Source: Mycolicibacterium baixiangningiae (GTDB taxonomy: Bacteria; Actinomycetota; Actinomycetes; Mycobacteriales; Mycobacteriaceae). From it: 64,000 nt of DNA. Both the position numbers and the translations under genes were made by a program. Position 1 is the first letter of the stretch. Each line of letters starts with the position of its first letter. Positions 38,216 through 63,231 of this stretch are shown here, one piece after another. Location of the stretch: positions 62,001-126,000 of the forward strand of contig NZ_CP066218.1 in the NCBI RefSeq assembly GCF_016313185.1. The letters are read 5' to 3'. The notes under the pieces are model-generated. The model ran no database searches and was not told where the DNA came from. It saw only the letters and a list, made by a program, of their open reading frames with translations.

Positions 38216-38220
38216 TCGCC

Positions 38221-38622: not shown

Positions 38623-38870
38623 TGGCACTCGGCCGATCCTACAGCCGCATCTGCGGTGATATCTACCACTTGTATCCGAGTCTGCGGATCGGCTCTGGCA
38701 TCGCCTCGCGTCGCGCGGCCTGACACCCATCACGATCAGATCTCCTCGACGGGATCGGTGGAAAAGTCGTTGCTGGGGATGGTGGAATCTGACGCGATGC
38801 ACATGTGCGGGGGTGACGGCGTGCCGGGTGGGCGCGCGGCGCGCCGGCGTGCCCGGGTGGTGTCGCCGCG

Positions 38871-40916
38871 ATGACCGAACAACCGCATGCCGAGGACGAT
38901 CCGCGGCTGGGCGCGCTGCTCGAATGGCGTCAACGGCTGATCGACTCCGGGGCTGTGTCGGCGCGCAGTTTCAAGGAGGCGCACCTGCGGCTGGTGCTGC
39001 GCTCCGGGCGCACCGACGTCGAGCAGATCCGCGCCATGCTGCCCGGATCGGTCTCCGAGCACGCCGACGATATGGCGCGGGTCCTGGCCGAACTGCCCGC
39101 GCAGCCGACTTCTCCAGCAGACGAGGAGATCACCTCCGCGACCAATCCGGCGGGCCGGCACCGCGAAGACGACCCGATCGCCGACGGCACACCGGCGCCA
39201 CCGCAGCTCGGTGAGCCGCTCATCGAGACTTTCTCCGGTACTGAGGAATTCGCGCCCTACCTGGCTGAGACACCGGCCGGTCCGGAACACAGCGTGACGT
39301 TGCACCGCCGCCGCGACACCGGGGCCCTCGAACTGCGCTGGCCGCCCGTCGCCACCACCGACCCAGCTGTCGTCTACCGGGTGGTGAGCGGCGAAGACGC
39401 CACCCCGAGATCACCCGAAACCGGCGACCTGCTCGCGGTCACCACCACGACGTCGGAGACCGACGACCGGCCACCGGTGGCCGCGGTCCGGCACTTCCAG
39501 GTGTGGGCGAACGTCGGTGCGTCGCGCACCGAAGCGCTGGCCGCACAACCGGTCCTGCACGCCGGTGGCGTATTGATCAGCCGGATCACCGACCTCATGC
39601 TGCGCGAGGACTCCGGACGGGTGGTCGGCCGCTACACCGTCCCGCCCGGGGTGAGCGCGGTCTACGTGTACCGGATGCGCGCCGACGAGGCGCACCGCGA
39701 CGGCCCGCAGTACCGCATCCTGACCGGACAGGACAACCTGGCGGGCTTCGTCGACATCGACCTCGAACGGGGCCACCGCTACGTCTACCGTGTGCGCTGC
39801 GCGGCGCCCGTCGGCGGGGTGCTGCGGCTGTCCGAGGCCGCGGAAGGCGAGGTGGAGGTCACGGCGGTGCTGGCGCCGGTCACCGACCTGGCGATCACCG
39901 GGAGCAGCGCCGACGCGACCGTGCTCGACCTCGCGTGGACCACGCCCCCCGGCGGACGGGTCGTCGTCTACCGCACGCCCACCGGACCGAGCGCGGGCGC
40001 CGAAGCCGACGAACTGCCGGAGGATGCGCTCGATCAGGTGGGGCTCCCCCCGGAATTGCTTCTGGCACAACCGGTTACCGAATACACGGACGACGACGGG
40101 CGGATCTACACGGCGATGCCCGGTGTGGCGTGGCCGGACCAGTGGAGCCGCGCGTACTTCACCCCGGTCACCGTCATCGGTGGCCGCGCGATGCTGGGCA
40201 AGACCTTCTCGACCGTGCGGACCGGCGTGATCCGCGACATCGAACTCGCGGAGTACTGCAACAAGCAGGTGCTCACCTTCGACTGGCCCGACGGCGCCGC
40301 AGCCGTCGTCGTCCATCTCGCCCCCCGAGGCCACGACCCACGCACCGGACTCACCGGCCAGTCGTACGAGATCACCCTCGAGGAGTACGAGAAGTACGGC
40401 GGTCTGCAACTGGCCACGCCCCTGCCCGTGCACGGCTGCTCCCTGCACCTGGCCCCGATCGCGTTCACCGGGGGCCGCCGCGTCATGGGCGCGATCGCCA
40501 GCGCCGAATACCAGGGACTGCTGCGGCTGCAGTACGCGGTGCGAGTGGGCCGCGATACCGACGGCCGGCCGTTCACCGCGACGCTGGCGGTGCGCTCCGA
40601 ATACGATCTGCCGGGTTCGCCGGCCTTCGTGCTGGTCAACAACCCGAACCGGATTCCGTTGAGCGTGCACGACGGTGATCTCGTCGACGTGGCGCCGCTC
40701 AACGAGCACGGCCAACTCGCCGCCCCACCCGCCAAGGAGCTGCGGTGGTCACAGCTCACCACGACCGGAGGCAGTGAACTGTGGGCGGCGAACGTCCGTA
40801 ACCGCCAGGGTTGGATCCGGCTGTTCGTCAACACGCCCTCGCCGGACAGCCTGCGGCTGATCGCCCTGCTCGACCCGCCGGTGGAGCATCTACGGCTGAC
40901 CCCGGCGGCGATATGA
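38871..40916 (+). CDS. Fibronectin-III-like protein of a GTPase-associated cassette
   Basis: The 681-residue protein has an N-terminal helical domain (about 10-75: RLGALLEWRQRLIDSGAVS, RAMLPGSVSEHADDMARVL), an acidic linker, and then a series of beta domains. One segment at about 340-375 (APVTDLAITGSSADATVLD, then LAWTTPPGGRVVVYR) reads like a fibronectin type III repeat. No signal peptide or membrane segment is seen, so it is probably cytosolic. It is first in a run ending with a GAP1-type protein and a zinc-ribbon GTPase, with ATGA overlap to the next gene. I do not recognise the full architecture. Confidence 0.65.
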   Translation: MTEQPHAEDDPRLGALLEWRQRLIDSGAVSARSFKEAHLRLVLRSGRTDVEQIRAMLPGSVSEHADDMARVLAELPAQPTSPADEEITSATNPAGRHREDDPIADGTPAPPQLGEPLIETFSGTEEFAPYLAETPAGPEHSVTLHRRRDTGALELRWPPVATTDPAVVYRVVSGEDATPRSPETGDLLAVTTTTSETDDRPPVAAVRHFQVWANVGASRTEALAAQPVLHAGGVLISRITDLMLREDSGRVVGRYTVPPGVSAVYVYRMRADEAHRDGPQYRILTGQDNLAGFVDIDLERGHRYVYRVRCAAPVGGVLRLSEAAEGEVEVTAVLAPVTDLAITGSSADATVLDLAWTTPPGGRVVVYRTPTGPSAGAEADELPEDALDQVGLPPELLLAQPVTEYTDDDGRIYTAMPGVAWPDQWSRAYFTPVTVIGGRAMLGKTFSTVRTGVIRDIELAEYCNKQVLTFDWPDGAAAVVVHLAPRGHDPRTGLTGQSYEITLEEYEKYGGLQLATPLPVHGCSLHLAPIAFTGGRRVMGAIASAEYQGLLRLQYAVRVGRDTDGRPFTATLAVRSEYDLPGSPAFVLVNNPNRIPLSVHDGDLVDVAPLNEHGQLAAPPAKELRWSQLTTTGGSELWAANVRNRQGWIRLFVNTPSPDSLRLIALLDPPVEHLRLTPAAI

Positions 40917-43405
40917 CCTCGCGCTACGGGCAGCTCACCTACACCTCGTTCGACACCGCGACGCACACGGGCGGATGGCAGGTCAAGGAAACCTCCGCCG
41001 ACCTCACCCCCGACGAGGTGCACGCGCTGACTTCCGGGGTCCGCACCGTCTTCCGCCCGGCGCAGCCACTGCCCACCTACCCGACACCCGAACAACTCGA
41101 GCACGGTCCGCGTCGGCTCGCCTATGGCCGCCTGGATCGCCAGCGCGCCGGGTATTGGCACACCGTGCCGGCCGGGTCCGACAGCACCGGCCGACCCGGA
41201 AACGTGTTCGCCCATGCGCTTCTCGACCGCGCGGCGGGGGAGCGGTCCCACCGTCCCATCGAATGGTGGCGCTCCGACGGGTGGCTGTGTCCGTACGGCC
41301 CCCTCGCGGTGGCCGCGGCCGCGCTGCCCGGCGAGCCTCCCACCCCGGGGGCGGTGGTGACCAAGGACAGCGTTGTGCGGTTCGCACTCGACCCCGGCGC
41401 CTGGCGGCTGGCGACGCTGTTCGGATTGCTCGACGCGGTCGCCGGCGCGCTGGACGGCGGCCCGCCGGTGGTGCTGGGTGTGGAATCGGCGGATTCGGCC
41501 GCACAGTGGATCGGATTGGTCAGCTTCCTGATGTCGGCGGGAACCGCTGCGGGACTGAACTTCTCGACGTTCGACCGCGCCGATCAGCTGACCCTGGCAC
41601 GGCAGAGCATGCAGCACCTGACCGCCGTGCCCGTCGACGACCTGGAGTACCTGCCCGACGACGTCGTCGCGATCAGTGAGCACGCCACCCTGTCGCTGGG
41701 CGAACTCGACCGCGAACCCCACCGCACCGCCGACGGGCAGGCAATCACCGTCACCCCGTGGTCGGCGATGGCGCAGGTGGTGCTGCTCGACGCCGAATCA
41801 GCGCGGTCGGTGCTCGACGACATCGACCACTACGCCGCCGAGGTGGCCGATGCGGGGTTGCACCCGGCCTGGCCCCTTGCGATGTCGGTGGCCCACCGCG
41901 ACACGTTCGCCGACGCGCTCACCGAGGCGCACGCGGTGATCGCCGCGCACTCGCCGCGGGCCGCCGGGGACTCCGTCGTCGCCCGCACCATCGCCGAGGT
42001 GATGCGCGGTGCGGTGGGTACCAGCACCGCCGATGCCTGGAAGGCGGTGCAGGACACTCCGGACGGTCCGGCGGCCGACCTGGCCACGGTGTCCTATCTG
42101 TGCCGCGCCGTCGCGGACTCCGAGTGGTTGAACCGGCCCGGCCTGATCCCGGCCCGTGCTCGCCGGTTCGAGCGGCACTCGGCGCCCCGGGAACTGCGCG
42201 ACGCCCTCGACCCGGCGCTGGCCGCGGCCCGGGCCGACGGTCCACTTCGGGTGGCACGGCTGGCGGATCTGCTGCTGCGTTGCGGGGTCGACGACGACCG
42301 GGTGCTCGACGCGCTCAGCCACGAGGTGGTGCCCGGGTTGACCGATCCGCAGGCCGCCCCCGCGTTGGTGCACGGGCTGCGCGAGAATGTCGGTGCGCCA
42401 ACCCGATTGGCGTTGGCGGCCGCCCTGCTGCGGGACTGCGGTGAGGCGCCCGCCGTCCCCGGTGAGGTGCTGGACTGGCTGGCGGAGGGCGTCACGGCGC
42501 CGGCGCCCCAGGAGTTGTGGCAAGCCGAGGAGTGGGATCCGGTCTGGACGCGCGCGGCGCTGCGCGGGGTGCGCACGGTGCAGCGCGGCGCCAGCGATCC
42601 GGCCGACCGCTGGGCGAGTCTGTGGTGGCTGCGGGTCAGCGGGTCGGCGCGATTCGAGGAGTTCGCGGGCAACTCGGTGTGGCATCCCGACGAATTGTCC
42701 GCCGCCGTAGGGGATTCGGTGCTCCCGGGAGCCGCGGCGGTGCGCACCCTGATGGGGGCGCCGTCGTCGCCGGCCCTGGACAGGTTGGCCCAGACGGTGC
42801 TCCGCACCAACAACGACGACGTGGCGGTGGCCTGTGCCGCGATGCGGATCTTCGATCCGCGAACCTGGATCGAACAGGGCTACGCCGCCAGCCACCAGAC
42901 CGCCTACGCACCGCTGTGGGAGAAGGCCGTCGAGGTCACCGGCGTGGCCGGTGTCCACCGCGACGCCGCCGTCCGGCTCGTGACGTTCGCCGCGATCGCC
43001 GCCACGGCCGGGCAGCCCTATCCACCGGCGAGCGCGATGATGACGTCCGATGCGCAGGTGGCGGCCGATGCGTTCGGCCACCTGGCCGTGCTGCTCGACG
43101 GCTATGTCCTCAACGCGATGTCGGTGCTGGCGGTGGCCGCCCTGCGGTTCGGGCACAACGGTGACGACCTGCCGGTGCTCGCGGACGGGATCGAGGACCT
43201 CATCTGGCAGACCGCGCGCCACATCCTGGCCACCCGCCCGCCGGAGACCCTCGACGTCGGCATGGTGGCCGCGACCATGGCGCAACTCTCCGGCGAACCG
43301 AGTGACGCGGCGCTGCGCCGGCACCGCAAGACCGTGCTGAAACTGCTGGCCCGCCGACCGGAGGCGCAACCCGCACCTTCGGCCCGAACCCGCTGGAGTC
43401 GTTGA
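40913..43405 (+). CDS. GTPase-associated protein 1 (GAP1)-type protein
   Basis: The 830-residue protein starts at ATG 40913, overlapping the upstream stop by 4 bases. Its N-terminus has the GAP1-N-type pattern (RYGQLTYTSFDTATHTGGW, LTSGVRTVFRPAQPLP, LAYGRLDRQRAGYWHTVPAG, GNVFAHALLD), followed by GAP1-M-like (SGPPVVLGVE, FLMSAGTAAGLNFSTFDR) and a long alpha-helical C-terminal region. From family knowledge, GAP1 proteins partner with DO-GTPases in GTPase-centred systems predicted to act in biological conflict. It lies directly before such a GTPase. The biochemical role is not established. Confidence 0.78.
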   Translation: MTSRYGQLTYTSFDTATHTGGWQVKETSADLTPDEVHALTSGVRTVFRPAQPLPTYPTPEQLEHGPRRLAYGRLDRQRAGYWHTVPAGSDSTGRPGNVFAHALLDRAAGERSHRPIEWWRSDGWLCPYGPLAVAAAALPGEPPTPGAVVTKDSVVRFALDPGAWRLATLFGLLDAVAGALDGGPPVVLGVESADSAAQWIGLVSFLMSAGTAAGLNFSTFDRADQLTLARQSMQHLTAVPVDDLEYLPDDVVAISEHATLSLGELDREPHRTADGQAITVTPWSAMAQVVLLDAESARSVLDDIDHYAAEVADAGLHPAWPLAMSVAHRDTFADALTEAHAVIAAHSPRAAGDSVVARTIAEVMRGAVGTSTADAWKAVQDTPDGPAADLATVSYLCRAVADSEWLNRPGLIPARARRFERHSAPRELRDALDPALAAARADGPLRVARLADLLLRCGVDDDRVLDALSHEVVPGLTDPQAAPALVHGLRENVGAPTRLALAAALLRDCGEAPAVPGEVLDWLAEGVTAPAPQELWQAEEWDPVWTRAALRGVRTVQRGASDPADRWASLWWLRVSGSARFEEFAGNSVWHPDELSAAVGDSVLPGAAAVRTLMGAPSSPALDRLAQTVLRTNNDDVAVACAAMRIFDPRTWIEQGYAASHQTAYAPLWEKAVEVTGVAGVHRDAAVRLVTFAAIAATAGQPYPPASAMMTSDAQVAADAFGHLAVLLDGYVLNAMSVLAVAALRFGHNGDDLPVLADGIEDLIWQTARHILATRPPETLDVGMVAATMAQLSGEPSDAALRRHRKTVLKLLARRPEAQPAPSARTRWSR

Positions 43406-43406
43406 C

Positions 43407-44564
43407 GTGACGAAATGCCCGCGGTGCTTCTCCGTGCTGGATCCCAACCAGCATCTGTGGACGCTGCCGCCCCAGGCCGGCGGGACCCGCTACCGCGACG
43501 ACCTCGCCTCGGCGTACCTGGGTGCGCCGGCGGATTCGGGGGCGCTCTACACGTGGGCCCGGCCGCCCGGCTACGCCGGCCCGCCGCCGCCGCTGAGCGA
43601 AGCCAGCCAGGCGCTGCAGGGTCCGGCGGTGGAGATCTGCCCGGTCTGCCACTTCATGCTGCCCGACGAGTGGCGCAGCGGGCACGCCATCTGCATCGCG
43701 ATGGCCGGCGCCCGCGCCACGGGTAAGAGCCTCTACATCGGCGTGCTGGTCAAACAGCTCGAGCTGCTGTGCGAACACCTCGGGGTCTCCATGCAGCCGG
43801 CCACCCGCGCGACCGCGGTGGCCTACACCATGAACTACGAGACACCGCTCTACGTACAGCGCGGGCTCGTGCCGCCGACCCCGACGGTGCAGACCCAGGC
43901 GTCGCATCAACGCGAACCGCTGATCTACGGGATCGGGGTGTGGCACGGCGTCCGGCGGTACCTCGTCCTGCGTGACGTCGCGGGTGAGGACCTGGAGTCC
44001 GGCGATCTGTACACCCCGCCGTTCCGGTTCTTCGGCAACGCCGACGCGGTGTTCTTCATGTTCGATCCGTTGCGGATCAAGGGGATTCGCGATCAACTCC
44101 ACGACCTGCTCCCGGCGCAGGCGTTCAGCGGCGGCGACCCCCGTGCGGTGCTGAACAACGTGCTGCACGCGGTCGGCCCCGCGCAGCCCAAACTCGCCGT
44201 CATCGTGTCGAAGTTCGACGCGCTGCGGGTGCTGCGCGACGTCGAGGGTTCCGAGTGGAGCCTGATCATGTCCAACGCCGGCGCGGCGTATCTGCGCGAC
44301 CCGTCGGATGCGCAGCAGTACGACGAGACCGACGGCCAGCTGCTGCACGAGGAGGTGCGCAGCCTGCTCACCCGGTTGCACGGCGGGGCCATCGTCGCGG
44401 CGGTGGAGAACCCGTCCACGGGCACCCGCCTGCCGCACCGGTACTTCGCCGTCTCCGCCCTCGGCGCGCCGCCCAGCGGCAACCGGCTGCATTCGCGCGG
44501 GATCGCGCCGTTCCGGACGGTCGACCCGGTGAGGTGGGTGACCGCGCCCTACGGCTTCCTCTGA
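43407..44564 (+). CDS. Zinc-ribbon GTPase of the DO-GTPase type
   Basis: The 385-residue protein starts at GTG 43407, one base after the GAP1 stop. Two CxxC pairs form a zinc ribbon (CPRC at 4-7, CPVC near 78). The P-loop is GARATGKS (101-108), the switch-II/Walker B strand reads LVLRDVAGEDL, and the base-recognition loop reads VSKFD. The GAxxTGKS P-loop with zinc ribbon matches DO-GTPase2-type proteins found with GAP1. It probably switches with GTP and acts with the two upstream proteins. No membrane segment is seen. Confidence 0.8.
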   Translation: MTKCPRCFSVLDPNQHLWTLPPQAGGTRYRDDLASAYLGAPADSGALYTWARPPGYAGPPPPLSEASQALQGPAVEICPVCHFMLPDEWRSGHAICIAMAGARATGKSLYIGVLVKQLELLCEHLGVSMQPATRATAVAYTMNYETPLYVQRGLVPPTPTVQTQASHQREPLIYGIGVWHGVRRYLVLRDVAGEDLESGDLYTPPFRFFGNADAVFFMFDPLRIKGIRDQLHDLLPAQAFSGGDPRAVLNNVLHAVGPAQPKLAVIVSKFDALRVLRDVEGSEWSLIMSNAGAAYLRDPSDAQQYDETDGQLLHEEVRSLLTRLHGGAIVAAVENPSTGTRLPHRYFAVSALGAPPSGNRLHSRGIAPFRTVDPVRWVTAPYGFL

Positions 44565-44604
44565 GCGGTTAGCATCGCAGGGCGAACCGATCGCAGGGGG
44601 GTCC

Positions 44605-45660
44605 ATGGTGCAGGTGGCTGGCGAAGCCGTTCCCGCGCTGCGGATCCGATGCGGTGACGATCCGTACAGCATCGGCCCGGGCGACGCGCCGATACTGATC
44701 GGGCGGGAACTGCCGGCGCAGATCAGGGTCGACGACCCGTGCATCTCGCGCATCCACGCCCGGGTCGACGTCAGCGGCGGCCACTGGGTGGTGACCGACG
44801 CGGGCAGCACCAACGGCATGTTCGTCGACGGTCGACGCGTCGATTCGGTCGATGTCCACGACACGGCGACCGTGCGGTTGGGCCACGCCGAGGGGACGGC
44901 GGTGACGTTGACGGTGGACGACACGGGGGCAGGCACCGCGACAGCCGTCGACATCGACATCGACATCGACGTCGGCATCGCGCGCGCCGGTGCTGCCGTC
45001 GCCGACCGTCGCGAGGAACTCGGCCACTCCCGGCGCCGCCTCGAGGCCGACGGGATCATCGACCAGCAGGCGTTGGCGGATTTCGAGGCCGGGCGACTGT
45101 GGCCGTCCGAGGACGTGCGGGCCCGCATCGAGCAGTTCCTGAAATGGCCGGCGGGCGTCGTCGCCGCGGTGCGCGCCGGCAGCGCGGCACCCGAGGACGA
45201 GAGCACCGAGATCCTGTCCGACACCGTGCAGACGGCGGTCATGGTCGACGCCGCCGACATCGCGCTCGGCAACGTCAGGGCGCGTATCGAAAGCGCTCCG
45301 CCACAGCATGATTCGGGATACGACGACTACGTCACCGCGCTGCTGTTCGACCTGCGCGGGCTGGAGACCATGGCGCGCAACGCCGGGAAGACGACCCACC
45401 GACCGGACGCCGCGGTCGTGCTCAGCGACATCCGTCGCACCTACAACGAGCTGATGGTGCGGGCGGCGCAGGCCCCGGGCGCACCGTTGAGCCGGCGGCT
45501 CTATGCCGCGAGGCACAGCGCGGAGTTGACCGTCGAGGAGACCGCGGACGTCGCGGGGGTGAGCGTCGACGCCGTCACCGACGCCGAATCGGGGCGCTAC
45601 GTGGACCCGACGGAATCGGCCGCCCTCGAGGCGCTCGTCCGTCGGCTCGCCGCCCGCTGA
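44605..45660 (+). CDS. FHA domain protein with EspM-like C-terminal HTH regions
   Basis: The 351-residue protein has an FHA domain (about 25-100) with the phosphothreonine-binding residues in place: GR at 33-34, Ser48, His51 and Asn70-Gly71. Residues about 120-351 match the EspM homologue at 49610-50347 along their length: ARAGAAVADRREELG with ARAGSAAAARRRQLD, ADGIIDQQALADFEAGRLWP with ADGIINAGALIAFEKGRSWP, LYAARHSAELTVEETADVAGV with LYAARRRANLTIDETAQAAGV. It has two HTH-like regions. It follows the GTPase by 40 bases and likely couples a phosphorylation signal to transcription. Confidence 0.8.
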   Translation: MVQVAGEAVPALRIRCGDDPYSIGPGDAPILIGRELPAQIRVDDPCISRIHARVDVSGGHWVVTDAGSTNGMFVDGRRVDSVDVHDTATVRLGHAEGTAVTLTVDDTGAGTATAVDIDIDIDVGIARAGAAVADRREELGHSRRRLEADGIIDQQALADFEAGRLWPSEDVRARIEQFLKWPAGVVAAVRAGSAAPEDESTEILSDTVQTAVMVDAADIALGNVRARIESAPPQHDSGYDDYVTALLFDLRGLETMARNAGKTTHRPDAAVVLSDIRRTYNELMVRAAQAPGAPLSRRLYAARHSAELTVEETADVAGVSVDAVTDAESGRYVDPTESAALEALVRRLAAR

Positions 45661-45709: not shown

Positions 45710-46219
45710 GTGGGCAAGAACGAACGGACGAAGATCGTGATGTCCGACGCCGAGATCGCAGAATTCATCGACCACAGCCGGACCGCGACGCTGGCCACCG
45801 TGCTGCCCGGCGGCCGGCCGCACCTGGTCGCGATGTGGTACGCGGTGCTCGACGGGGAGATCTGGTTCGAGACGAAGGCCAAATCGCAGAAGGCGGTCAA
45901 CCTCCGCCGCGACCCGACGCTGACGGTGATGATCGAGGACGGTCTGACCTACAACACGCTGCGCGGTGTCTCCATCGACGGCCGCGCGGAGATCGTCGAC
46001 TCGGACCCCGATCTGCTTCTGCGCGTGGGGATCAGCGTGTGGGAGCGCTACACCGGTCCCTACAGCGACGAGACGAAGCCGTTCGTCGACCAGATGATGC
46101 ACAACCGGATCGCGGTGCGCGTGGTGTCGGAACGGATGCGCAGCTGGGACCACCGCAAGCTCGGGATGCCCGAGATGCCGTTGAGCGGCAGCACCGCCCA
46201 GTACCTGGGGGAGCAGTGA
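45710..46219 (+). CDS. PPOX-class F420/flavin-dependent oxidoreductase
   Basis: The 169-residue protein from GTG 45710 has a split beta-barrel: RTATLATVLPGGRPHLVAMW, GEIWFETKAKSQKAVNLRRDP, VSIDGRAEIVD. The PHL-W and K-NLRRDP features are typical of mycobacterial PPOX-class proteins that bind F420 or FMN. Its stop overlaps the next gene by 4 bases (GTGA), so the two oxidoreductases are co-translated. Confidence 0.82.
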   Translation: MGKNERTKIVMSDAEIAEFIDHSRTATLATVLPGGRPHLVAMWYAVLDGEIWFETKAKSQKAVNLRRDPTLTVMIEDGLTYNTLRGVSIDGRAEIVDSDPDLLLRVGISVWERYTGPYSDETKPFVDQMMHNRIAVRVVSERMRSWDHRKLGMPEMPLSGSTAQYLGEQ

Positions 46220-48958: not shown

Positions 48959-49252
48959 TCAGGCGGATTCGGGGAACACCCGGCGGATCGCGCGGACAGG
49001 GTAGCCGTTGCGCTCGGCCAGCGAACGAAGCTGCTTCAGCGCAAAGGTGCGCCCACGACCGGCTTCCGGGATCACGATGCCGGCCCACAGACCCTCGGCG
49101 CGGGGCAACTCCACCGCATCGCGGGCGCACATCCAGCGGCGCGGGCAGCCCCGGCAGATCGCCTTGGCCTCTTCGTCGGCCGTCGTGGTCCAACGCTCCG
49201 GATCGCGTGTGCAGGCGCCGACCGGGATCTCCAGAAAGGTCACGTTGCTCAT
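48959..49252 (-). CDS. whiB6: WhiB6 iron-sulfur regulator
   Basis: The 97-residue protein has four cluster-ligand Cys at 14, 33, 36 and 42 (C-x18-C-x2-C-x5-C) and the GLWAGI turn followed by a basic C-terminus. Its place next to an EspM homologue and just before the ESX-1 genes matches M. tuberculosis Rv3862c. WhiB6 responds to redox and NO and controls ESX-1 and DosR genes. It is slightly shorter than the M. tuberculosis protein. SD AGGAG lies 7 bases before ATG. Confidence 0.9.
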   Translation of the reverse strand: MSNVTFLEIPVGACTRDPERWTTTADEEAKAICRGCPRRWMCARDAVELPRAEGLWAGIVIPEAGRGRTFALKQLRSLAERNGYPVRAIRRVFPESA

Positions 49253-49609: not shown

Positions 49610-50347
49610 ATGACCAACGCGGAGTCGATCGACGAGGCCACCGGCGTCCTCGACCCTGGGGTGGCGCGCGCCGGCTCCGCGGCGGCAGCGCGGCGCCGGC
49701 AGCTCGACATCAGTCAGCGCAGTCTCGCCGCCGACGGCATCATCAACGCCGGGGCCCTCATCGCCTTCGAAAAGGGCCGAAGCTGGCCGCGCGAACGCAC
49801 GCGGGCAAAGTTGGAAGAGGTCCTGCGCTGGCCCCCCGGAACCATCGCGAGGCTGCGCCGCGGTGAACCGATCAGCACCGGCGAACGCACCGAGGCCGTG
49901 ATCGCCACCGGTGGCGACGACGTACCGTTGATCGCGCAAGCGGTCGTGACCGCCGTCCACACGCTCGGCGGCACCGCGGAGACACTGCCGCCGGTCGACG
50001 ACGAGGACTTCACGCCCCGGGTGAGCGCGATCTTGTCCGACCTGCGGCAGCTCGAGGCCGTCGCCGCGCGTGCCGCGCGGATCAGCAAGGTGACCCCCGC
50101 ACTGATCAAAGCGCTCAGCGCGGTCCGCCGTCGCATCGACGAACTGACCATGCTGGCCGCGGCCGCACCGGGCGCCACCCTGGGGCAGCGGCTGTACGCA
50201 GCCCGGCGGCGCGCCAACCTGACGATCGACGAAACCGCTCAGGCCGCAGGGGTTTCCGACGACGACATCGCGGGCGCCGAGGCCGAGCGGCCGGTCACCC
50301 CCGCGGCGGCGGCTGCGATCGAGGCACTGATCGGTGAGCTCGACTGA
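49610..50347 (+). CDS. espM: EspM homologue lacking the N-terminal FHA-like part
   Basis: The 245-residue protein from ATG 49610 has DPGVARAGSAAAARRRQLDIS, ADGIINAGALIAFEKGRSWP, LEEVLRWPPGTIARLRRGEP and a second HTH LYAARRRANLTIDETAQAAGV. This segment is nearly identical, from memory, to the C-terminal part of Rv3863 (EspM), encoded divergently from whiB6. Rv3863 is about 390 residues with an FHA-like N-terminus, which is absent here even if the frame is read from 49400. A paralogue with the FHA domain is at 44605-45660. Role: regulation of whiB6 and ESX-1. Confidence 0.82.
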   Translation: MTNAESIDEATGVLDPGVARAGSAAAARRRQLDISQRSLAADGIINAGALIAFEKGRSWPRERTRAKLEEVLRWPPGTIARLRRGEPISTGERTEAVIATGGDDVPLIAQAVVTAVHTLGGTAETLPPVDDEDFTPRVSAILSDLRQLEAVAARAARISKVTPALIKALSAVRRRIDELTMLAAAAPGATLGQRLYAARRRANLTIDETAQAAGVSDDDIAGAEAERPVTPAAAAAIEALIGELD

Positions 50348-54041: not shown

Positions 54042-54595
54042 TAGGGGTCTCCTCCGGATGTCAGACGAGCCGGACGTCGGCCTGTCCAGTAAACCAACCG
54101 GGCCGCGATTCCCGCAGCCCCGATCACGGCGCAACATCAGCAAAGTTATGGAGTCCGGGGGTTGGCTGCGTAGTCACGAAAACGCCCGACCCGGACACGG
54201 GCTATACCGGGTGCACAACCAGCGCGGCACCGCATTTGCGTGCCGGCCGGCCGCGGATCCGCGCCGACGGCCCAGGGCCCGCCCTGAGCGTTCGCTGAGA
54301 AATTGATTTCACAGAGTTGAGCGGGATAAGCGGCAGCGGTTGTATATTGCTGACCAACCGAAACCCGCACCGGGCGATACGGTGGTCCGGCTCGGAAAAT
54401 CATGCGCTGGAGGTGCATGGTGCGCTGGTACGCTCACTTGCGGCGAAGTGATGCACGGCCCGGCGTTCCGCCGACGCTGTCGCTGGATGCGGCAAATGTC
54501 GAAGGATGCAGGACGGAAGCCGGCCCGCACGCCGCGCCGATCGGCTGAAGAGGAGTTGGGGAACCGATGGGTGATCTGCGCGTCGCGGGAGTTCG
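54042..54595. promoter_or_regulatory. ESX-1 operon upstream region
   Basis: No gene is seen except a 10-codon leader at 54567-54599. TATATT at 54343-54348 is a good -10 candidate with GGTTG/CAACC arms on either side (54338-54342, 54355-54359). espE and espF, which stand here in M. tuberculosis, are absent. Confidence 0.45.
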
Positions 54596-54599
54596 ATGA
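54567..54599 (+). CDS. Possible 10-residue leader peptide before espG1
   Basis: ATG 54567 follows AGAGGAG (54549-54555) and encodes MGDLRVAGVR, ending in TGA at 54597-54599, which overlaps both candidate espG1 starts (ATGATG at 54596-54601). The strong SD is on the leader, not on espG1 (GGGAG only). Termination-reinitiation coupling is possible. Confidence 0.4.
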   Translation: MGDLRVAGVR

Positions 54600-55444
54600 T
54601 GGCCAGTGCGCCGGCCGCCGCCGGCGGCACCCACTACGACGACGTCGTGGCCGTCGAAGTCACGATCGACGGCATGCTGGTGATCGCCGACCGCATGAAC
54701 GTGATCGACTTTCCGCCGTCGCTCGGCATCCGGCTCAACATTCCGCAGCCCGACCTCCGAAAGATCGTCTGGGAACAGGTCGCACGCGATCTCACCGAAC
54801 AGGGTGTCCTGAACTTCTACGGTGACCCGCACCCCGAGGTGGCCTCGATGGTCGACACCCTGAGCCGGCCCGACCGGGTCCTCGAGGGGCGCTGGTGGCG
54901 TCGCGATGTCGGCGGCAAGATGGTGCGCTTCGTCGTGTGCCGCAAGGGCGACCGGCACGTCGTCGCCGCCCGGGACGACGAGATGCTGGTGCTGCAGCGC
55001 GTCGCCCCCCAGATCGGGCTGGCCAACATGGTGACGACGGTGCTCGGCGGCGCCGCGCCCGCCGACGTCGAACCGCTGACCGGGGTGGCCAGCAAGCTGG
55101 CGCAGTGCCGGACGGCGAACGAGCTGCAGGCCTACGGCATACCGCTGACGTCTGCGCGCGCCTACGCCGAGATCATCAGCGAGCCGGCGAGCTGGGTGGA
55201 ACTCACTGCGACAGAACGCCACCCCGGTGGCACGCAGACCACCGCGGACGTCGCCGCCGGTGTGCTCGACTCCCCGCACGGCCGCATCGTGTCGATCCCG
55301 CGCCGGGTCAGCGGCGAGCTCTACGGCAGCTTCCTGCCCGGCACTCAGGAGAACCTGCAGCGGGCGCTCGACGGGCTGATCGCTTTCCTCCCGTCGCAGA
55401 CGTGGTTCGACCAGAGCGACGCCGACGCCTTCCACGGGGAGTGA
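54596..55444 (+). CDS. espG1: ESX-1 chaperone EspG1
   Basis: The 282-residue protein matches EspG family layout: VEVTIDGMLVIADRMNVIDF, PPSLGIRLNIPQP, RFVVCRKGDRHVVAARDDEML, and SGELYGSFLPGTQENLQRALDG. EspG proteins bind PE-PPE heterodimers in the cytosol and bring them to their own ESX system. ATG 54599, second of two adjacent ATGs, has better SD spacing. It heads the ESX-1 core operon; espH follows 12 bases later. Confidence 0.9.
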   Translation: MMASAPAAAGGTHYDDVVAVEVTIDGMLVIADRMNVIDFPPSLGIRLNIPQPDLRKIVWEQVARDLTEQGVLNFYGDPHPEVASMVDTLSRPDRVLEGRWWRRDVGGKMVRFVVCRKGDRHVVAARDDEMLVLQRVAPQIGLANMVTTVLGGAAPADVEPLTGVASKLAQCRTANELQAYGIPLTSARAYAEIISEPASWVELTATERHPGGTQTTADVAAGVLDSPHGRIVSIPRRVSGELYGSFLPGTQENLQRALDGLIAFLPSQTWFDQSDADAFHGE

Positions 55445-55456
55445 GCGGAACCCTCC

Positions 55457-55981
55457 ATGGTGGGTGATTCGCCGCGCAACCCCGATGACGACGCCGACGA
55501 CCTGTCGGCGCTCGACTTCTACCAACCCGTCGCCGCTGACGACGAGTCCGACCTCACCGCGCTCGACGCGTTCGTCGCCTACGTCCCGGCCGACGACGGC
55601 GCCGAATCGTTCGTCACGGTGCCCACCGAGGATCCGGAGGCCGAAGCAGAGCCACTGTTCACGGTGACCAACCCGCCCGGCACGGTCACCGTCTCCACCT
55701 ACCTCGACGGCCGGGTTCAGCACATCGATCTGTCACCGCGGGTGACGCACATGTCGGAAAAGGAACTCGCCGAGGAGATCGTCGTGATCGCGGGACTGGC
55801 CACCCAGGACGCCAAGTCGGCGCAGTACGAGTTCATGCTCGACGGACTGCGCGACCACGGGCACGACGATCCGGCCACCCGGGACTTCCTGCAGCGCGAC
55901 CTCGATCTGCCCACACCCGAAGAAGCCCGGGCACGCCGCGCCGAGGTCTTCGCCACCAGGTATGCAGGTAGCCATGAGTGA
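55457..55981 (+). CDS. espH: ESX-1 associated protein EspH
   Basis: The 174-residue acidic protein has an Asp-rich N-terminus (DDDADDLSALDFYQP) and a C-terminal half with RVTHMSEKELAEEIVVIAGLA and FMLDGLRDHGHDDPATRDFL. This matches EspH (Rv3867, 183 residues) in length and position. EspH is needed for secretion of certain ESX-1 substrates. It overlaps eccA1 by 8 bases if eccA1 starts at 55974. Confidence 0.9.
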   Translation: MVGDSPRNPDDDADDLSALDFYQPVAADDESDLTALDAFVAYVPADDGAESFVTVPTEDPEAEAEPLFTVTNPPGTVTVSTYLDGRVQHIDLSPRVTHMSEKELAEEIVVIAGLATQDAKSAQYEFMLDGLRDHGHDDPATRDFLQRDLDLPTPEEARARRAEVFATRYAGSHE

Positions 55982-57695
55982 TCACCTGGCCAGCCTGTTC
56001 GGCAGCGCGGTCGGCATGCTGCCCAACGCGCCCGCTCGTTCCTACGAGTTGTTCACCGACATCACCAACTACGACGAGACCGCCTGTGACGCATGGGTGG
56101 GCCGCATCCGGTGCGGCGACATGGACCGGGTGACGCTGTTCCGGGCGTGGTACTCCCGCAACAACTTCGGGCAGCTGGCCGGTGCCGCCGAGATCTCGAT
56201 GAACGCGCTGGCCGCCCGCGTCCCGATCGGCGGGTTGTTCGGGGAGATCACCTACCCGATCACCTCGCCGCTCGCGATCACGCTCGGGTTCGCCGTCCAC
56301 GAGGCGAAGGAGGGCAACTTCGCCGACGCCATGGAGGCGCTCGACAATGTGCCGCCCGGCGGTGCCGACCACCTGATCGCGTGGGTGAAGGCCGTCATCT
56401 ACGGTGCGGCGGAACGCTGGACCGACGTGATCGACCAGGTTCGTGGCGCGAACACCTGGCCCGACAAGTTCCTCGCCGCGGCCGCCGGGGTGGCGCACGG
56501 CGTGGCCGCCGCCAACCTCGGACTGTTCACCGAAGCCGAACGGCGGCTGACGGAGATGAACACCTCACCCGCCGGTCAGGCGTGCGCGCCGACCATCGCC
56601 TGGTTCCTGGCCATGACGTACCGCAGCCAGGGGAACGAGGACGGCGCCCGCGCGCTGTTGGAGTGGCTGCAGGCCACCCATCCGGAACCGAAGGTGACTG
56701 CCGCACTGCGGGATCCGTCGTACCGGGTGGTGACCACCACCGCCGAGAAGATTGCGGCGCGGACCGATCCGTGGGATCCGGCCAGCGTGGTGGCCGACAC
56801 CTCCGGGCGGGAGAAACTGCTCACCGAGGCACAGGCCGAACTCGACCGCCAGATCGGGCTGAGCCGGGTCAAGGAGCAGATCGAGGCCTACCGCGCCGCC
56901 ACCCAGATGGCCAAGATCCGGGCGGCCCGCGGGATGAAGGTGGCCCAGACCTCCAAGCACATGATCTTCGCAGGGCCGCCCGGTACCGGCAAGACGACGA
57001 TCGCGCGGGTGGTGGCCAACATCCTGGCCGGGCTGGGCGTGATCTCCGAACCCAAGCTCGTCGAGACCTCGCGCAAGGATTTCGTCGCCGAATACGAAGG
57101 GCAGTCCGCGGTGAAGACCGCACGCACCATCGACCGTGCTGTCGGTGGAGTGCTGTTCATCGACGAGGCCTACACCCTGGTGCAGGAGCGTGACGGCCGC
57201 GCCGACCCGTTCGGCACGGAAGCGCTCGACACCCTGCTGGCGCGCATGGAGAACGACCGCGACCGCCTGGTGGTGATCATCGCCGGCTACAGCGCCGACA
57301 TCGACCGCCTGCTGGAGACCAACGACGGCCTGCGGTCGCGCTTCGCCACCCGCATCGAATTCGACTCGTACTCCGCCGAGGAAATCGTGGAAATTGCGAA
57401 AGTGATTGCGGTGGCCAACGATTCGAGCGTCGACGAAGACGCCGCCAAACTCGTGCTCGAGGCGGCGACACTGCTCGGCCAGCGCACGCTGAACGGTAAG
57501 CCGGCGCTGGACATCGCCGGCAACGGTCGCTATGCCCGCCAGCTGGTCGAGGCAGGCGAGCAGAGCCGCGACATGCGGTTGGCACGGTCCCTGGACTTCG
57601 AGAGCCTCGGGGTCGAGCAGTTGAGCGAAATCAACGGTGAGGACATGGCGTCGGCGATCGCTGCCGTCCATGCCCGCCTGAACATCAGCGGGTGA
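55974..57695 (+). CDS. eccA1: ESX-1 AAA+ ATPase EccA1
   Basis: The 573-residue protein equals the M. tuberculosis length when started at ATG 55974; ATG 55962 is four codons longer. An N-terminal TPR-like domain ([40 protein letters not shown]) precedes a CbbX-type AAA+ domain with Walker A GPPGTGKT (334-341), Walker [10 protein letters not shown] and sensor-like [12 protein letters not shown]. EccA is the cytosolic ATPase thought to disassemble EspG-substrate complexes. Confidence 0.95.
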
Positions 57696-57699
57696 AGCG

Positions 57700-59187
57700 A
57701 TGGCGAGTTTCCGGCTTACCACCAAGGTGCAGGTCAGCGGATGGCGGTTCCTGCTGCGCCGCGTCGAGCACGCGATCGTGCGCCGCGACACCCGCATGTT
57801 CGACGATCCGCTGCAGTTCTACAGCCGCGCGGTCGGTGCCGGCATCATCATCGCGGTCCTGATCTGCCTGGGGGCAGCGCTGATGGCGTACTTCAAACCG
57901 CTGGGTAAGCGCGGCGGTGACCAGCTGCTCGTCGACCGCACCACCAACCAGCTCTACGTGGTGATGCCCGGCGGCGGCGAACTGCGGCCGGTGTACAACC
58001 TGACCTCGGCGCGGCTCGTGCTCGGCAATCCGGGCACCCCCGTCGCGGTGAAATCCGACGAACTGAACCGGATGTCGAAGGGGCAGCCGATCGGCATCCC
58101 CGGTGCGCCGTATGCGACGCCGGTATCCGGTGCGGCCGAATCGATGTGGACGCTGTGCGACACCGTCACCAAACCCGAGAGCGTGGTGCCGACGGTGGAG
58201 ACCTCGGTGCTGGTGCGTCCGCTCGTGGTCGACTCGACGGTCGGGCCGCTGCGGCCGGACCAGGGGATGCTGGTGTCGTTCAAGGGCGCCAACTGGCTGG
58301 TCACCGAGGGCGGGCGGCATTCGATCGACCTGGCCGACCGGGCGGTGACCTCGGCGGTCGGCATCCCCGTCACCGCACGGGCGACGCCCATCTCCGACGG
58401 GCTGTTCAACGCGCTGCCGAACGCCGGTCCGTGGCAGCTGCCCCAGGTGGCGCGTGCCGGTGAACCCAACACCGCCGGCCTGCCCGCGAACCTGGTGATC
58501 GGATCGGTGTTCAAGACGGTCACCGAATCCGACGAGCAGCAGCACTACGTCGTGCTTCCCGACGGGGTGGCCCGGGTCAACGAACCGACCGCGGCGGCGT
58601 TGCGCGCCACCAACTCCTACGGCCTGATCGAGCCGCCGATGGTGGAAGCCAGTGTGGTGTCCCGTATTCCGGAGCAGGTGTACGTCTCACCACTGCCCGA
58701 CAAGGCGCTCGACATCCTGCTGCGTGAGGACGATCCGACGCTGTGCTGGTCGTGGCAGCGCGTCGCCGGTGACCAGGCGCCCCGCACCACGGTGATCGCC
58801 GGCAGGCGCCTGCCCATCGCCGCGTCGGCGCTGAACACCGGCATCCGGCAGATCACCGGCGATTCGACCGTGTACATCGACGGCGGGCAGTTCATCCGGT
58901 TGCAGTCCCCGGATCCGCGGTACGGCGAAAGCCTCTACTACATCGACCCGCAGGGCGTGCGGTACGGACTCCCCGACGAGGAGACCGCGAAGAACATCGG
59001 CCTGGTGGGGCCGTTGACCGCGCCGTGGCAGGTGGTCAGCCTGCTCGTCGACGGGCCGGTGCTGTCGAAACAGTCGGCGCTGCTCGAACACGACACCCTG
59101 CCCGCGAACCCCAACCCGCGCAAGGTCGGCGAGGACGGCGCGGCCGCCGGCGCCCAACCGGCCACATCACGCACCGGAGGCGGCTGA
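57700..59187 (+). CDS. eccB1: ESX-1 membrane component EccB1
   Basis: The 495-residue protein has a short cytosolic N-terminus ([20 protein letters not shown]), one membrane helix (about 46-64), and a large periplasmic domain with repeat-like R-domains ([49 protein letters not shown]). The two Cys in LCDTV and LCWSW fit the conserved disulfide. EccB is part of the ESX inner-membrane complex. It follows eccA1 by 4 bases. Confidence 0.95.
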
Positions 59188-59203
59188 TGACTGGAGACGA
59201 CAG

Positions 59204-61444
59204 ATGACGACGAAGAAGTTCACCCCGATCATCAAGCGGGGTCCACGCCTGACTCCAGGTGAGATCACCGTGACACCGCCGGACGACCTGGGCGTCGAGA
59301 TCCCGCCGTCGGGCATCCAGCGTGCGCTGCCGTGGGTGATGGGCGGCTGCATGCTCGGGATGATCGCGATCATGATGTTCACCGGTGTGCGGCAGCTGTC
59401 GCCGTACATGCTGATGATGCCGCTGATGATGGTCATGGCCACGGTCGGCTTCATGGCAGGCGGCGGATCGGGCGCCAAACGCGTGCCCGAGATCAACGCC
59501 GACCGCAAGGAGTACCTGCGGTACCTCTCGGGGCTGCGCACCCGGGTCACCTCGTCGGCGGCCGCGCAGGTGACGTTCTTCAACTACCACGCACCGCATC
59601 CCGAGGATCTGCTGTCGATCATCGGTACCAACCGGCAGTGGTCCCGGCAGGCCAACAGCGAGTTCTTCGCCGCGACGCGTATCGGGCTGGGGTCCGAACC
59701 GGCGGTGGACCGTCTACTCAAACCGTCCATCGGCGGCGACGTCAACGGCCTGTCCGGTGCGCAGGCCGCCCCGCAGCCGCACCTCGAACCGGTCAGCCAC
59801 ATGTGGGTGACGAAGTTCCTGCGCACCCACGGCCTCATCCACGACTGCCCGAAACTCCTTCAGCTGCGGACGTTTCCGACCATCGCGATCGGCGGCGACC
59901 CCGGCGGGTCCGCGGGCCTGCTGGCGGCGATGATCTGCCACCTGGCGGTGTTCCACCCGCCGGACCTGTTGCAGCTGCGCGTACTCACCGACAACCCGGA
60001 GGATCCGGACTGGAGCTGGCTCAAGTGGCTGCCGCACGTGCAGCACCAGAGCGACCTCGATGCCGCGGGCCCGACCCGCATGGTGTTCACCCGGCCGGAC
60101 GGGTTGAGCGATCTGACCGCGCGCGGGCCGCACACCGCCGACTCGGTGCCCAGCGGCCCGTACGTCGTCGTCATCGACCTCACCGGCGGGCGGGCCGGCT
60201 TCCCGGCCGACGGCCGCGCCGGCGTCACCGTGCTCACCCTCGGTAACCACAACGGCTCCACCTACCGGATCCGCGTGGCGGCCGACGGCACCGCCGACGA
60301 CCGGCTGCCCAACCAGCCCTTCCGGCTGGTCACCAACGGCACCGACCGGCTGACCGCCGGGCAGGCCGGGCGCATCGCTCGCAAGTTGGCGGGGTGGTCG
60401 ATCACCGGCGCGATCATCGACAAGAACGTGCGGGTGCAGAAGAAGGTGGCCACCGAGTGGCATCAGCTCGTCGGCGCCCAGACCGTCGAGGAGGTGACGC
60501 CGGCGCGCTGGCGGATGTTCGCCGACACCGACCGCGACCGGCTGAAGATCCCGTTCGGGCACGAACTGCGCACCGGCGACATCGAGTATCTCGACATCAA
60601 GGAGGGCGCCGAATTCGGTGCGGGCCCGCACGGCATGCTGATCGGCACCACAGGTTCGGGTAAGTCGGAATTCCTTCGGACACTGATCCTTTCGCTTGCC
60701 GCCACCCACCACCCCGACCAGGTGAACCTGCTGCTCACCGACTTCAAGGGTGGTTCGACATTCCTCGGGATGGAGAAGCTGCCGCACACCGCCGCGGTGG
60801 TCACGAACATGGAGGAGGAAGCGGAACTCGTCAGCCGGATGGGTGAGGTGCTCACCGGTGAACTCGACCGCCGCCAGTCGATCCTGCGGCAGGCCGGTAT
60901 GCAGGTCGGTGCGGCCGGCGCGCTGTCCGGGGTTGCGGAATACGAGAAGCACCGCGAACGCGGCGCCGACCTGCCGCCGCTACCCACGCTCTTCGTCGTC
61001 GTCGACGAGTTCGCCGAGCTCTTGCAGAACCATCCGGACTTCATCGCACTCTTCGACCGCATCTGCCGGGTGGGCCGGTCGCTGCGCGTGCACCTGCTGC
61101 TCGCCACCCAGTCGCTGAACACCGGCGGCGTGCGCATCGACAAACTCGAACCGAACCTGACCTACCGGATCGCGTTGCGCACCACCAGCTCCGCGGAATC
61201 CAAGGCGGTGATCGGGACGCCGGAGGCGCAGTACATCACCAACAAGGAGAGCGGCGTCGGCTTCCTGCGCGTCGGGATGGAGGATCCGGTGAAGTTCCAG
61301 AGCGTGTACACCGGCAATCCGTACGTCCCGGCGACGGCCGTCCAGGAGGACGGTGAGGTCAAACCCCGCCAGTCCAACCGCAACCGGGTGCGCATCCACA
61401 AGTTCACCGCGACACCGATCTTCGATACGGCGGTGAACTCATGA
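59204..61444 (+). CDS. eccCa1: ESX-1 FtsK/SpoIIIE ATPase EccCa1
   Basis: The 746-residue protein has two N-terminal membrane helices (about 40-61 and 65-87), a DUF domain, and an FtsK/SpoIIIE ATPase domain with Walker A GTTGSGKS (481-488) and Walker [13 protein letters not shown]. The split of EccC into Ca and Cb polypeptides is characteristic of ESX-1. It motors substrate recognition and export with EccCb1. The next gene overlaps by 4 bases. Confidence 0.95.
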
Positions 61445-63231
61445 CAGCGTCGAAGCAGGCCGATGAACAGAAGGTGCTGCGCGAAGTCGTCCTCGATCAG
61501 CTGACCACCGGGGAGACCCGTGCCTACCGGATGTGGCTGCCGCCGCTGACGGATCCGACGCCGGTCAACGAACTGGTCGCACGAGACCATCAGCGCCGGC
61601 CGCTGCGGTTCGGACTGGGCATCATGGACGAACCCCGACGGCACCGCCAGGAGGTCTGGGGTGTCGACGTGTCGGCGGCCGGTGGAAACATCGCCGTCGG
61701 CGGCGCCCCGCAGACCGGCAAGTCGACGTTCCTTCAGACACTGATGATGTCGGCGGCGGCCACCCATTCACCGCGTGACGTGCAGTTCTACTGCGTCGAC
61801 CTCGGCGGCGGCGGCCTGATGTACCTCGAGGATCTGCCGCATGTCGGCGGTGTCGCCACCCGCGCCGAACCCGACCGCGTCAACCGCGTCGTCGCGGAGG
61901 TGAAAGCCGTTCAGCGCCAACGAGAGCGGACGTTCAAGGAGTTGCGGGTCGGGTCGATCGCCGGGTACCGGCAGATGCGGGAGGATCCGACCAACCCGGC
62001 GGCCTCCGATCCGTTCGGCGACGTATTCCTGGTGATCGACGGGTGGCCGGCGTTCGTCGCGGAGTTCCCCGACCTCGAACCGGTCGTCCAGGATCTGGCC
62101 GGGCAGGGTCTGGCGTTCGGGGTGCACGTCATCATCTCGACACCGCGCTGGACCGAGTTGAAGTCACGCGTCCGCGACTACCTGGGCACCAAGATCGAGT
62201 TCCGGCTCGGTGATGTGAACGAGACGCAGATCGACCGCATCACCCGCGAGATCCCGGCCAACCGGCCGGGCCGGGCGATCTCGATGGAGAAGCACCACCT
62301 GATGATGGGCGTGCCCCGCCTCGACGGTGTGCACAGCCCCACCAACCTCGTTCCGGCGATCTCGGCGGCCGTCGCGCAGATCGCGGCCCAGCACACCGTG
62401 CAGGCGCCGCAGGTCCGGGTGCTCCCCGAACGCGTCTACCTGCACGAGCTCGACCCCGCCCCGCCGGGACCCGATTCCGACTACCGCACCCGGTGGCGCG
62501 TACCACTCGGGGTGCGCGAGTCGGACCTCAGCGTCGCCTACAACGAGATGCAGATGACGCCGCACCTGTTGATCTTCGGTGCGCCCAAGTCCGGCAAAAC
62601 GACGATCGCCCATGCGGTGGCGCAGGCCATCTGCCAGCGCAACAGCCCCCAGCAAGTGCGATTCATGCTGGCCGATTACCGCTCGGCGTTGCTGGATGCG
62701 GTGCCCCAGAGCCACCTGCTCGACGCCGGTGCGGTGAACCGCAACCACACCTCGTTGGAAGCGGCAATCAAGGCTTTAGCGGCCAACCTCCAGAAACGGC
62801 TGCCTCCGCCCGACCTGACGACGGCCCAACTCCGCGCCCGGTCGTGGTGGAGTGGGCCCGACGTGGTGCTGCTCGTCGACGACTGGCACATGATCGTGGC
62901 CGCGTCGGGCATGGTTCCGCCGATGGCGCCGCTGGCCCCGCTGCTGCCCGCGGCGGCCGATATCGGCCTGCACATCATCGTGACCTGCCAGATGAGCCAG
63001 GCGCATCGGGCCACGATGGACAAGTTCGTCGGGGCTGCGTACGGCGCCGGAACCCCGACGCTGTTCCTCTCCGGCGAGAAGACGGAGTTCCCGTCGAGCG
63101 AGATCAAGCTGCGCAAACGGCCGCCTGGCCAGGCTCTTCTGGTGTCGCCGGACGGTAAGGAGGTCGTCCAGGCCGCCTACGTCGATCCCCCCGAAGAAGA
63201 AGTGTTAGCACCACCCCCGCAGGGCGGTTAG
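61441..63231 (+). CDS. eccCb1: ESX-1 FtsK/SpoIIIE ATPase EccCb1
   Basis: The 596-residue protein has two ATPase domains: Walker A GAPQTGKS (88-95) with Walker [13 protein letters not shown], and GAPKSGKT (380-387) with [12 protein letters not shown]. It has no membrane helix and joins EccCa1 at the membrane; in M. tuberculosis its third domain binds the EsxB signal tail. ATGA start overlaps eccCa1. Confidence 0.95.

Follow-up and report, generated by a model that had tools for sequence, protein, structure and literature searches.

The SaeABC-like genes beside the ESX-1 locus of Mycolicibacterium baixiangningiae and their relation to the tubulin-bearing DO-GTPase systems of actinobacteria

The actinobacterial tubulin theme of the GAP1/DO-GTPase systems combines, in the passages of Kaur et al. 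(2020, eLife 9:e52696) that describe it, a fibronectin type III (FNIII, FN3) protein with an HRDC domain, a GAP1-N2 protein, a zinc-ribbon DO-GTPase, a von Willebrand factor A (vWA) protein and a tubulin; a role in conflict is proposed there for GAP1/DO-GTPase loci. The locus described here lies in a 64,000-nucleotide stretch of the Mycolicibacterium baixiangningiae genome (contig NZ_CP066218.1, positions 62,001 to 126,000; hereafter, the window), where four plus-strand open reading frames (ORFs) fill positions 38871-45660, close to the genes of the ESX-1 secretion machine. The first three encode the FNIII protein, the GAP1-N2 protein and the zinc-ribbon DO-GTPase of the tubulin theme. Full relatives of this trio add a Tubulin_2 and a beta-vWA protein, whereas the form in the window is without tubulin, vWA and membrane component and is situated beside ESX-1. 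According to the computations, the trio derives from the actinobacterial tubulin/GAP1-N2 system by reduction; in the best reading, it has been exapted for ESX-1, with a lineage-specific regulator, encoded by gene 4, beside it.

The names SaeA, SaeB and SaeC were reportedly given by Wirth and co-workers (2012, Mol Microbiol 83:654) to proteins of M. smegmatis, which are said to serve as a polar scaffold for ESX-1. Our searches found 669, 255 and 280 relatives of the three Sae proteins, 120 of which were listed for each. Among the matches listed, an M. mantenii protein, 59% identical to that of gene 1, is called “putative ESX-1 scaffolding and assembly protein SaeA”, an M. litorale protein, 83% identical to that of gene 2, is likewise named SaeB, and relatives of gene 3 at 67-82% identity bear the incomplete UniRef name “ESX-1 scaffolding and assembly protein S”. 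The letter C for gene 3 follows from the gene order and from a row of a proteomics table (in PMC8525676) that gives M. smegmatis A0QNH6, compared here by name only, as SaeC. Orthology with SaeABC is thus indicated for genes 1 and 2 by named relatives and for gene 3 by incomplete names and gene order, and the view of the initial annotation, that GAP1/DO-GTPase pairs have no worked-out function, is therefore out of date for this locus.

The databases put both names on one family (NCBI calls M. litorale protein P0248 “GAP1-N2 domain-containing”, and its UniRef name is “ESX-1 scaffolding and ass..”), so that the link between Sae and GAP1-N2 already exists as automatic annotation. The GTPase, GAP1 or FN3 identity of the Sae proteins is not discussed in the literature found, most subscription papers lying outside the search. 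None of the papers containing the terms DO-GTPase, double-GTPase, GAP1-N2 or GTPase-associated protein 1 concerns ESX, as far as their titles and available passages go, and “ESX” and “type VII” have zero occurrences in the main text of Kaur et al. (2020, eLife 9:e52696). The Sae set itself is already known; what is added here is its connection with the DO-GTPases and the absence of tubulin from the short form linked to ESX-1.

The three-gene unit and its proteins

The window is carried by the single 6.18-Mb contig of the host genome. The four ORFs, their strand and their spacing are as given in the initial annotation (Table 1): the ATG of gene 2 overlaps the end of gene 1 by 4 bases, 1 base separates gene 2 from the GTG of gene 3, and 40 bases separate gene 3 from gene 4. 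The third-position GC content of the four genes (0.87-0.93) constitutes a strong coding bias, the codon signature of true genes. The same 4-base overlap of saeA with saeB is seen in 35 of the 36 named mycobacterial loci L078-L114, and the three-gene unit is therefore not a product of chance; genes 1-3 (38871-44564) form one tight unit. The ratios of non-synonymous to synonymous substitution (dN/dS) are 0.13-0.17 (gene 1), 0.18-0.23 (gene 2) and 0.06-0.09 (gene 3) in comparisons with five relatives each, and 0.23-0.33 (gene 4) with four, values indicative of constraint (purifying selection) on all four. A sigma-70 promoter scan around genes 1-4 returned 0 promoters, and a terminator scan of the same region gave 2 terminator-like sites versus 1.5 expected.

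Profiles, family alignments and a fold match bear out the earlier domain calls, i.e., Fn3-like, GAP1, zinc-ribbon DO-GTPase and forkhead-associated/helix-turn-helix (FHA-HTH). The AlphaFold2 (AF2) model of SaeA (pLDDT 88.1, pTM 0.56) comprises an N-terminal helical domain (residues 11-74), a disordered linker (80-120) and then tandem FN3 beta-sandwich domains; its top Foldseek match is to the fibronectin FN3 repeats of 1fnf (E 7e-13). Gene 1 itself has no match in the Pfam copy searched, nor did that copy return the families PF25831-PF25836 that are precomputed for SaeA relatives. With E values up to 1 accepted, the fn3 profile matches 6 of 33 aligned SaeA members (lowest E 0.00095) and the HRDC profile one of the 33, and the helical domain is predicted from its position to be HRDC-like. 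The model match and the fn3 matches of the members together give gene 1 the FNIII repeats of the GAP1-N2/DO-GTPase systems.

SaeB contains a GAP1-N2 domain (PF20013, 68.2 bits) and a GAP1-M domain (PF20014, 35.6 bits; cut-offs 24), the pairing of an N2-type N domain with an M domain that marks GAP1 proteins, and both profiles match all 27 aligned SaeB members, the window's included. In M. houstonense (L051 / L089), saeB encodes just 694 aa, and another stretch resembling saeB is present beyond the PPOX gene.

SaeC carries two CxxC knuckles (C4, C7, C78 and C81) and the motifs GARATGKS, T158, DVAGED, SKFD and SA, which we take to be G1, G2, G3, G4 and G5, respectively. All 28 SaeC proteins of linked three-gene loci have intact G1, G3 and G4 motifs, and D190, G193, E194 and the four cysteines are retained in 28 of 28 linked copies. 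The DO-GTPase2 profile matches 26 of 31 aligned SaeC-family members, the window's included (E up to 0.01; lowest 2.8e-12), and the family displays the Walker B glutamate and the frequent N-terminal zinc ribbon of the DO-GTPases. SaeC relatives also carry the precomputed Pfam family PF27062, for which the Pfam copy searched gave no match. By computation, SaeC is a TRAFAC GTPase of the DO-GTPase2 kind that has a zinc ribbon and all of the GTPase motifs. The window's SaeC has one set of four N-terminal cysteines, whereas the systems in the relevant text of Kaur et al. (2020) usually have two ribbons. The host genome gives only one SaeC match at E up to 1, i.e., no second paralogous GTPase; according to the same text (eLife 9:e52696), two GTPase copies occur in 38% of systems, and a double GTPase is therefore not required for membership.

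Long and short forms and their history

We mapped 127 SaeC-matching loci (L031-L157), representing 100 distinct SaeC proteins, with some genomes entered twice, unnamed and named. saeB is found in 120 and saeA in 119 of them; where either or both are missing (8 loci), the sequence is short or truncated or saeC is a remnant. The long form has the order tubulin, orf880, saeA, saeB, usually a beta-vWA protein, and saeC, where the orf880 product is about 900 aa long with two hydrophobic stretches; the short form consists of saeA-saeB-saeC only. The long form occurs in Rhodococcus, Gordonia, Williamsia, Propionibacteriaceae, Arthrobacter, Corynebacterium and many mycobacteria; in some non-mycobacterial loci the vWA query is unmatched and a gap of about 1 kb occupies the vWA place. 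The tubulin assignment is based on a PF13809 match of 154 bits in a Rhodococcus plasmid copy and, in 6 mycobacterial genomes, on Tubulin_2 matches that exceed the cut-off and lie immediately 5' of orf880. Of the 80 long-form loci, 69 have a tubulin match; the 47 loci classed as short, which include cut ones and remnants, have none.

Among 248 evenly sampled genomes of the genus, SaeC is matched in 45, in two of them by a 53-aa remnant, and EccCb1 in 136 (E up to 1e-180). In the two remnants (L076 and L077, in genomes G131 and G094), just a C-terminal piece of saeC is left, one with a stop; they may be vestiges of a lost system. Linkage to ESX-1 was defined as a whiB6 match within about 9 kb. 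The 46 loci examined (45 fetched plus the window, with the two remnants left out) comprise 25 linked and 21 unlinked ones. The linked loci are short in 22 cases and long in 3; the unlinked are long in 19 cases and short in 2, one of the latter on a contig that ends before the reach of whiB6 (Fisher p 1e-7 for form versus place, in a test that ignores shared ancestry). EccCb1 is matched in 25/25 linked genomes and in 24/24 short-form genomes (the match in G028 holds a stop), compared to 9/18 genomes with unlinked copies only, the same proportion as in those without SaeC (101/203). The sae genes of genome G077 also sit beside whiB6-espM-ESX-1. Linkage to ESX as a general rule was rejected: none of the 43 loci L115-L157 (L153 being a Mycobacterium metagenome-assembled genome), tested with eight genes of the ESX-1 locus over at most 10 kb on each side, has a match, and unlinked copies do not track ESX-1.

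The 27 genomes with a linked or three-gene locus were searched whole for Tubulin_2, orf880 and vWA309 (E up to 1e-5). All three match in the same 6 genomes and none matches in the other 21, the host genome (G000) included. Of the 6, three have a long form beside ESX-1, whose orf880 shares 98-99% identity with the M. aquaticum one (L081), and the remaining three (G021, G119 and G177) have a linked three-gene copy together with an unlinked full copy. The window likewise holds no tubulin, vWA or membrane component, and its locus is thus outside the tubulin subtype (theme 1) as such. In the midpoint-rooted SaeC tree, the linked three-gene copies fall inside the mycobacterial radiation that holds long forms, and the linked copies are contained in a 26-row set (support 99/85), with the M. 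aquaticum long form beside ESX-1. The simplest history would be an arrival beside ESX-1 as a long form, followed, once or more, by loss of tubulin, orf880 and vWA.

Several long-form loci have additional genes. Proline-rich proteins are encoded 3' of saeC in L039, L045, L061 and others, that of L045 having a DUF4190 and a PknH-like extracellular domain (PknH_C, 114 bits); these are possible sensors that differ between species. The Corynebacterium glutamicum control genome has a Tubulin_2 match above the cut-off, and the long form may exist there. In the Rhodococcus opacus plasmid pRho-G13 (L158), an ORF of at least 806 aa at 2-2419, directly 5' of the long-form tubulin gene, appears by eye only to be vWA-like and membrane-anchored and has no Pfam match.

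Gene 4 and the ESX-1 surroundings

The product of gene 4 contains an FHA domain (PF00498, 58.6 bits), which retains the GR, SRIH and STNG motifs, presumably those that bind the phosphopeptide, and an HTH domain (32 bits); profile and motifs together identify it as an FHA protein. It scores 291 bits against the EspM model NF052403, nearly the whole of which it covers, and is 43% identical to the EspM of the host genome over 231 aa. EspM is described as a regulator of whiB6 and ESX-1 (Sanchez et al. 2020, in the sections of PMC7002343 that deal with it). Gene 4 shares its layout, FHA plus HTH, with the EspM of M. marinum and M. tuberculosis presented there, and differs in scoring below the equivalog cut-off (550 bits) and in its site after saeC rather than divergent from whiB6.

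Full-length orthologues of gene 4 (at least 60% identity) occur in 6 of the 248 genomes, every one directly after saeC, and none follows saeC in 19 of 25 ESX-1-linked and 21 of 21 unlinked loci. Weaker matches, EspM included, are found in 245 of the 248 (E up to 1e-12), and the matches listed include full-length FHA-HTH paralogues, about 40-50% identical, at other places. In the window, gene 4 starts 40 bp after saeC; the distance is 102-131 bp in four relatives, and in a fifth, which has an inserted ORF, it reaches 1,350 bp. A nine-base element, TAGCATCGC, lies 29-36 bases 5' of the gene 4 start in all six loci and occurs once in the window; we take it to fit the TANNNT consensus of a -10 element. 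Because this distance is so variable and TAGCATCGC is conserved in 6/6 loci, gene 4 most likely has a promoter of its own. Its count of 6/248 and variable gap rule it out as a core component, and it appears from these comparisons to be a lineage-specific EspM paralogue beside SaeABC rather than a part of the machine. It would probably tune the transcription of ESX-1 or sae genes, its FHA domain answering a phosphothreonine signal.

The position of the locus beside ESX-1 control genes is confirmed by profiles of WhiB, EspM, EspG, EccA, EccB, EccCa and EccCb nearby (Table 1). The host EspM falls below the 550-bit cut-off because its FHA part is missing, and no FHA match was obtained in the EspM ORFs found at linked loci (incomplete in L034 and L105). 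The M. smegmatis EspM is also reported to be without FHA (same sections of PMC7002343). Gene 4 may thus supply the FHA function that the host EspM lacks.

Table 1. Positions in the window of the sae-like genes, gene 4 and neighbouring ESX-1 features
Feature	Coordinates	Strand	Basis
saeA-like gene, 681 aa	38871..40916	+	AF2 model, Foldseek, aligned members, named relative
saeB-like gene, 830 aa, GAP1-N2 and GAP1-M domains	40913..43405	+	PF20013, PF20014
saeC-like gene, 385 aa, GTG start, zinc-ribbon TRAFAC GTPase	43407..44564	+	motifs, family profile matches
TAGCATCGC element before gene 4, candidate promoter	44570..44578	+	position and conservation in alignment
gene 4, FHA-HTH protein, EspM family, 351 aa, two HTH matches	44605..45660	+	PF00498, NF052403
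F420-dependent PPOX-class oxidoreductase, conserved downstream neighbour in linked loci	45710..46219	+	TIGR03618 94.5 bits
whiB6, WhiB family, divergent from espM	48959..49252	-	PF02467 32 bits; whiB6 name from position beside espM
espM, HTH part only, without FHA	49610..50347	+	NF052403 362 bits, model positions 126-366
ESX-1 core: espG1, espH (name presumed from position), eccA1, eccB1, eccCa1, eccCb1	54596..63231	+	EspG PF14011 172 bits; EccA, EccB, EccCa and EccCb above cut-off

A MinD/ParA-like ATPase (CbiA, 35 bits) is encoded antisense within the ESX-1 locus (52665-54143, minus strand) and is matched in 23 of 24 fetched SaeC-linked loci, the remaining one being incomplete; a positioning ATPase near a scaffold GTPase is suggestive. 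On the other side, a solute-binding protein (SBP_bac_11, ModA-like) and an HTH-TOBE regulator (37484-38802, minus strand) are encoded divergently from saeA and are matched in the nearest relatives. The fifth relative mentioned above (L034 / L105) has a 1.35-kb insertion before gene 4, with a 425-aa ORF that resembles a 13E12/HNH repeat protein by eye, and a shortened gene 4 frame. In the houstonense/setense group (L051, L052, L089 and L090), a diverged second FHA-HTH EspM-like gene of about 380 aa lies a few kb past EspM.

Proposed role and alternatives

We propose, with a probability of roughly 0.6, that SaeA, SaeB and SaeC form a GTPase-switched scaffold which helps to assemble or place the ESX-1 secretion machine. 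The proposal draws its folds, motifs, gene order and absences from computation and the scaffold role from the names and the background literature; from these we infer the nucleotide cycle, the contacts and the direction of control. SaeC would be the GTP switch, its GTP-bound form acting together with the constant partner SaeB, and the FN3 chain of SaeA would grip an envelope or ESX-1 partner. The long form probably has as its output a tubulin-based structure at the membrane. The short form is without tubulin, and its switch would act on ESX-1 itself, nucleating the apparatus or holding it at the cell pole. ESX-1 is described as polar in M. smegmatis in the pertinent part of PMC9118679.

Several points weigh against this proposal. 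The window's own SaeC scores 17.3 bits against DO-GTPase2, under the cut-off of 27, so that the profile searches suggested in the initial annotation succeeded outright for GAP1-N2 and GAP1-M and, for DO-GTPase2, through the aligned family. No SaeC match exists in 101 of the 136 EccCb1-positive genomes; ESX-1 as such therefore needs no SaeC, and in those genomes the scaffold would be accessory or replaced. Shared ancestry among the genomes inflates the Fisher tests, and the 25/25 score for EccCb1 is partly built in, since linkage was defined by whiB6. The 27 genomes searched for tubulin include drafts, one of them 87% complete, so that absence is not proof. The 26-row SaeC set also contains an unlinked long form (L046), and the linked three-gene label needs 3 changes on the tree, at least 2 of them forced. 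The set of named loci is without M. smegmatis, and the polar role is drawn from the title of the Wirth 2012 paper, the database names and general background.

A conflict system directed at invaders, merely located beside ESX-1, in which the FN3 protein senses the invader and the GTPase triggers an effector, would agree with the GAP1-N2 class of the trio, its patchy presence among mycobacteria and the SaeC relatives on two Rhodococcus plasmids, the one examined carrying the long form. We consider it unlikely: the likely output parts (tubulin, vWA and membrane protein) are missing from the linked short form, no effector domain was recognised in the trio, the proteins are named after an ESX-1 role, dN/dS is low, and genes 1, 2 and 3 each matched 0 PADLOC families (E up to 0.1). 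Gene 4 had weak CapH and RmrA matches in PADLOC, as HTH proteins may give, and SaeC had no match in phage records. The trio could instead be a general envelope or polarity GTPase, its adjacency to ESX-1 the result of hitch-hiking and the ESX-1 effects of mutants indirect. The copies away from ESX-1 in mycobacteria, the EccCb1 frequency of genomes with unlinked copies only and the 43 loci without ESX-1 genes all speak for such a GTPase, which nevertheless seems improbable to us, as the three-gene form is almost confined to the place beside ESX-1 and G021, G119 and G177 hold a linked three-gene and an unlinked full copy. Since these genomes keep both, divided roles are suggested.

The initial annotation suggested that the four genes probably form one operon and that an FHA-HTH protein which reads phosphothreonine, and with it Ser/Thr kinase activity, could gate the GTPase module. 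The short gap on the same strand, the conserved FHA motifs and the adjacency of gene 4 to saeC in 6/6 genomes that have it are in keeping with such a model, which we nonetheless judge to be very improbable. The operon holds for the tight unit of genes 1-3 and breaks down at gene 4, which is so rare, stands at so variable a distance, once behind an inserted ORF, has a promoter-like element of its own and belongs to the family of EspM, the whiB6/ESX-1 regulator (PMC7002343, as above). The linkage of saeABC is kept across mycobacteria and that of gene 4 is not. No kinase or phosphatase was found among the profiled neighbours, which cover part of the neighbourhood and of the window. Neither a conflict role nor kinase gating found support here.

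A tentative extension, with the odds against it, is that the DO-GTPase/GAP1-N2/FNIII systems, including the tubulin-bearing form, are at root polarity and assembly switches for envelope machines and not conflict systems. SaeABC would then be a version that gave up the filament-forming tubulin and turned its switch to type VII secretion. At stake are the placing and assembly of ESX-1, which drives the virulence of pathogenic mycobacteria and, in M. smegmatis, conjugation. The analysis joins the Sae proteins, a name from cell biology without biochemistry, to the DO-GTPase systems, which have a predicted biochemistry. The term “scaffold” thereby becomes a specific hypothesis, namely that SaeC and SaeB together run a GTPase cycle, and the actinobacterial tubulin/DO-GTPase loci would gain a first handle on their role.

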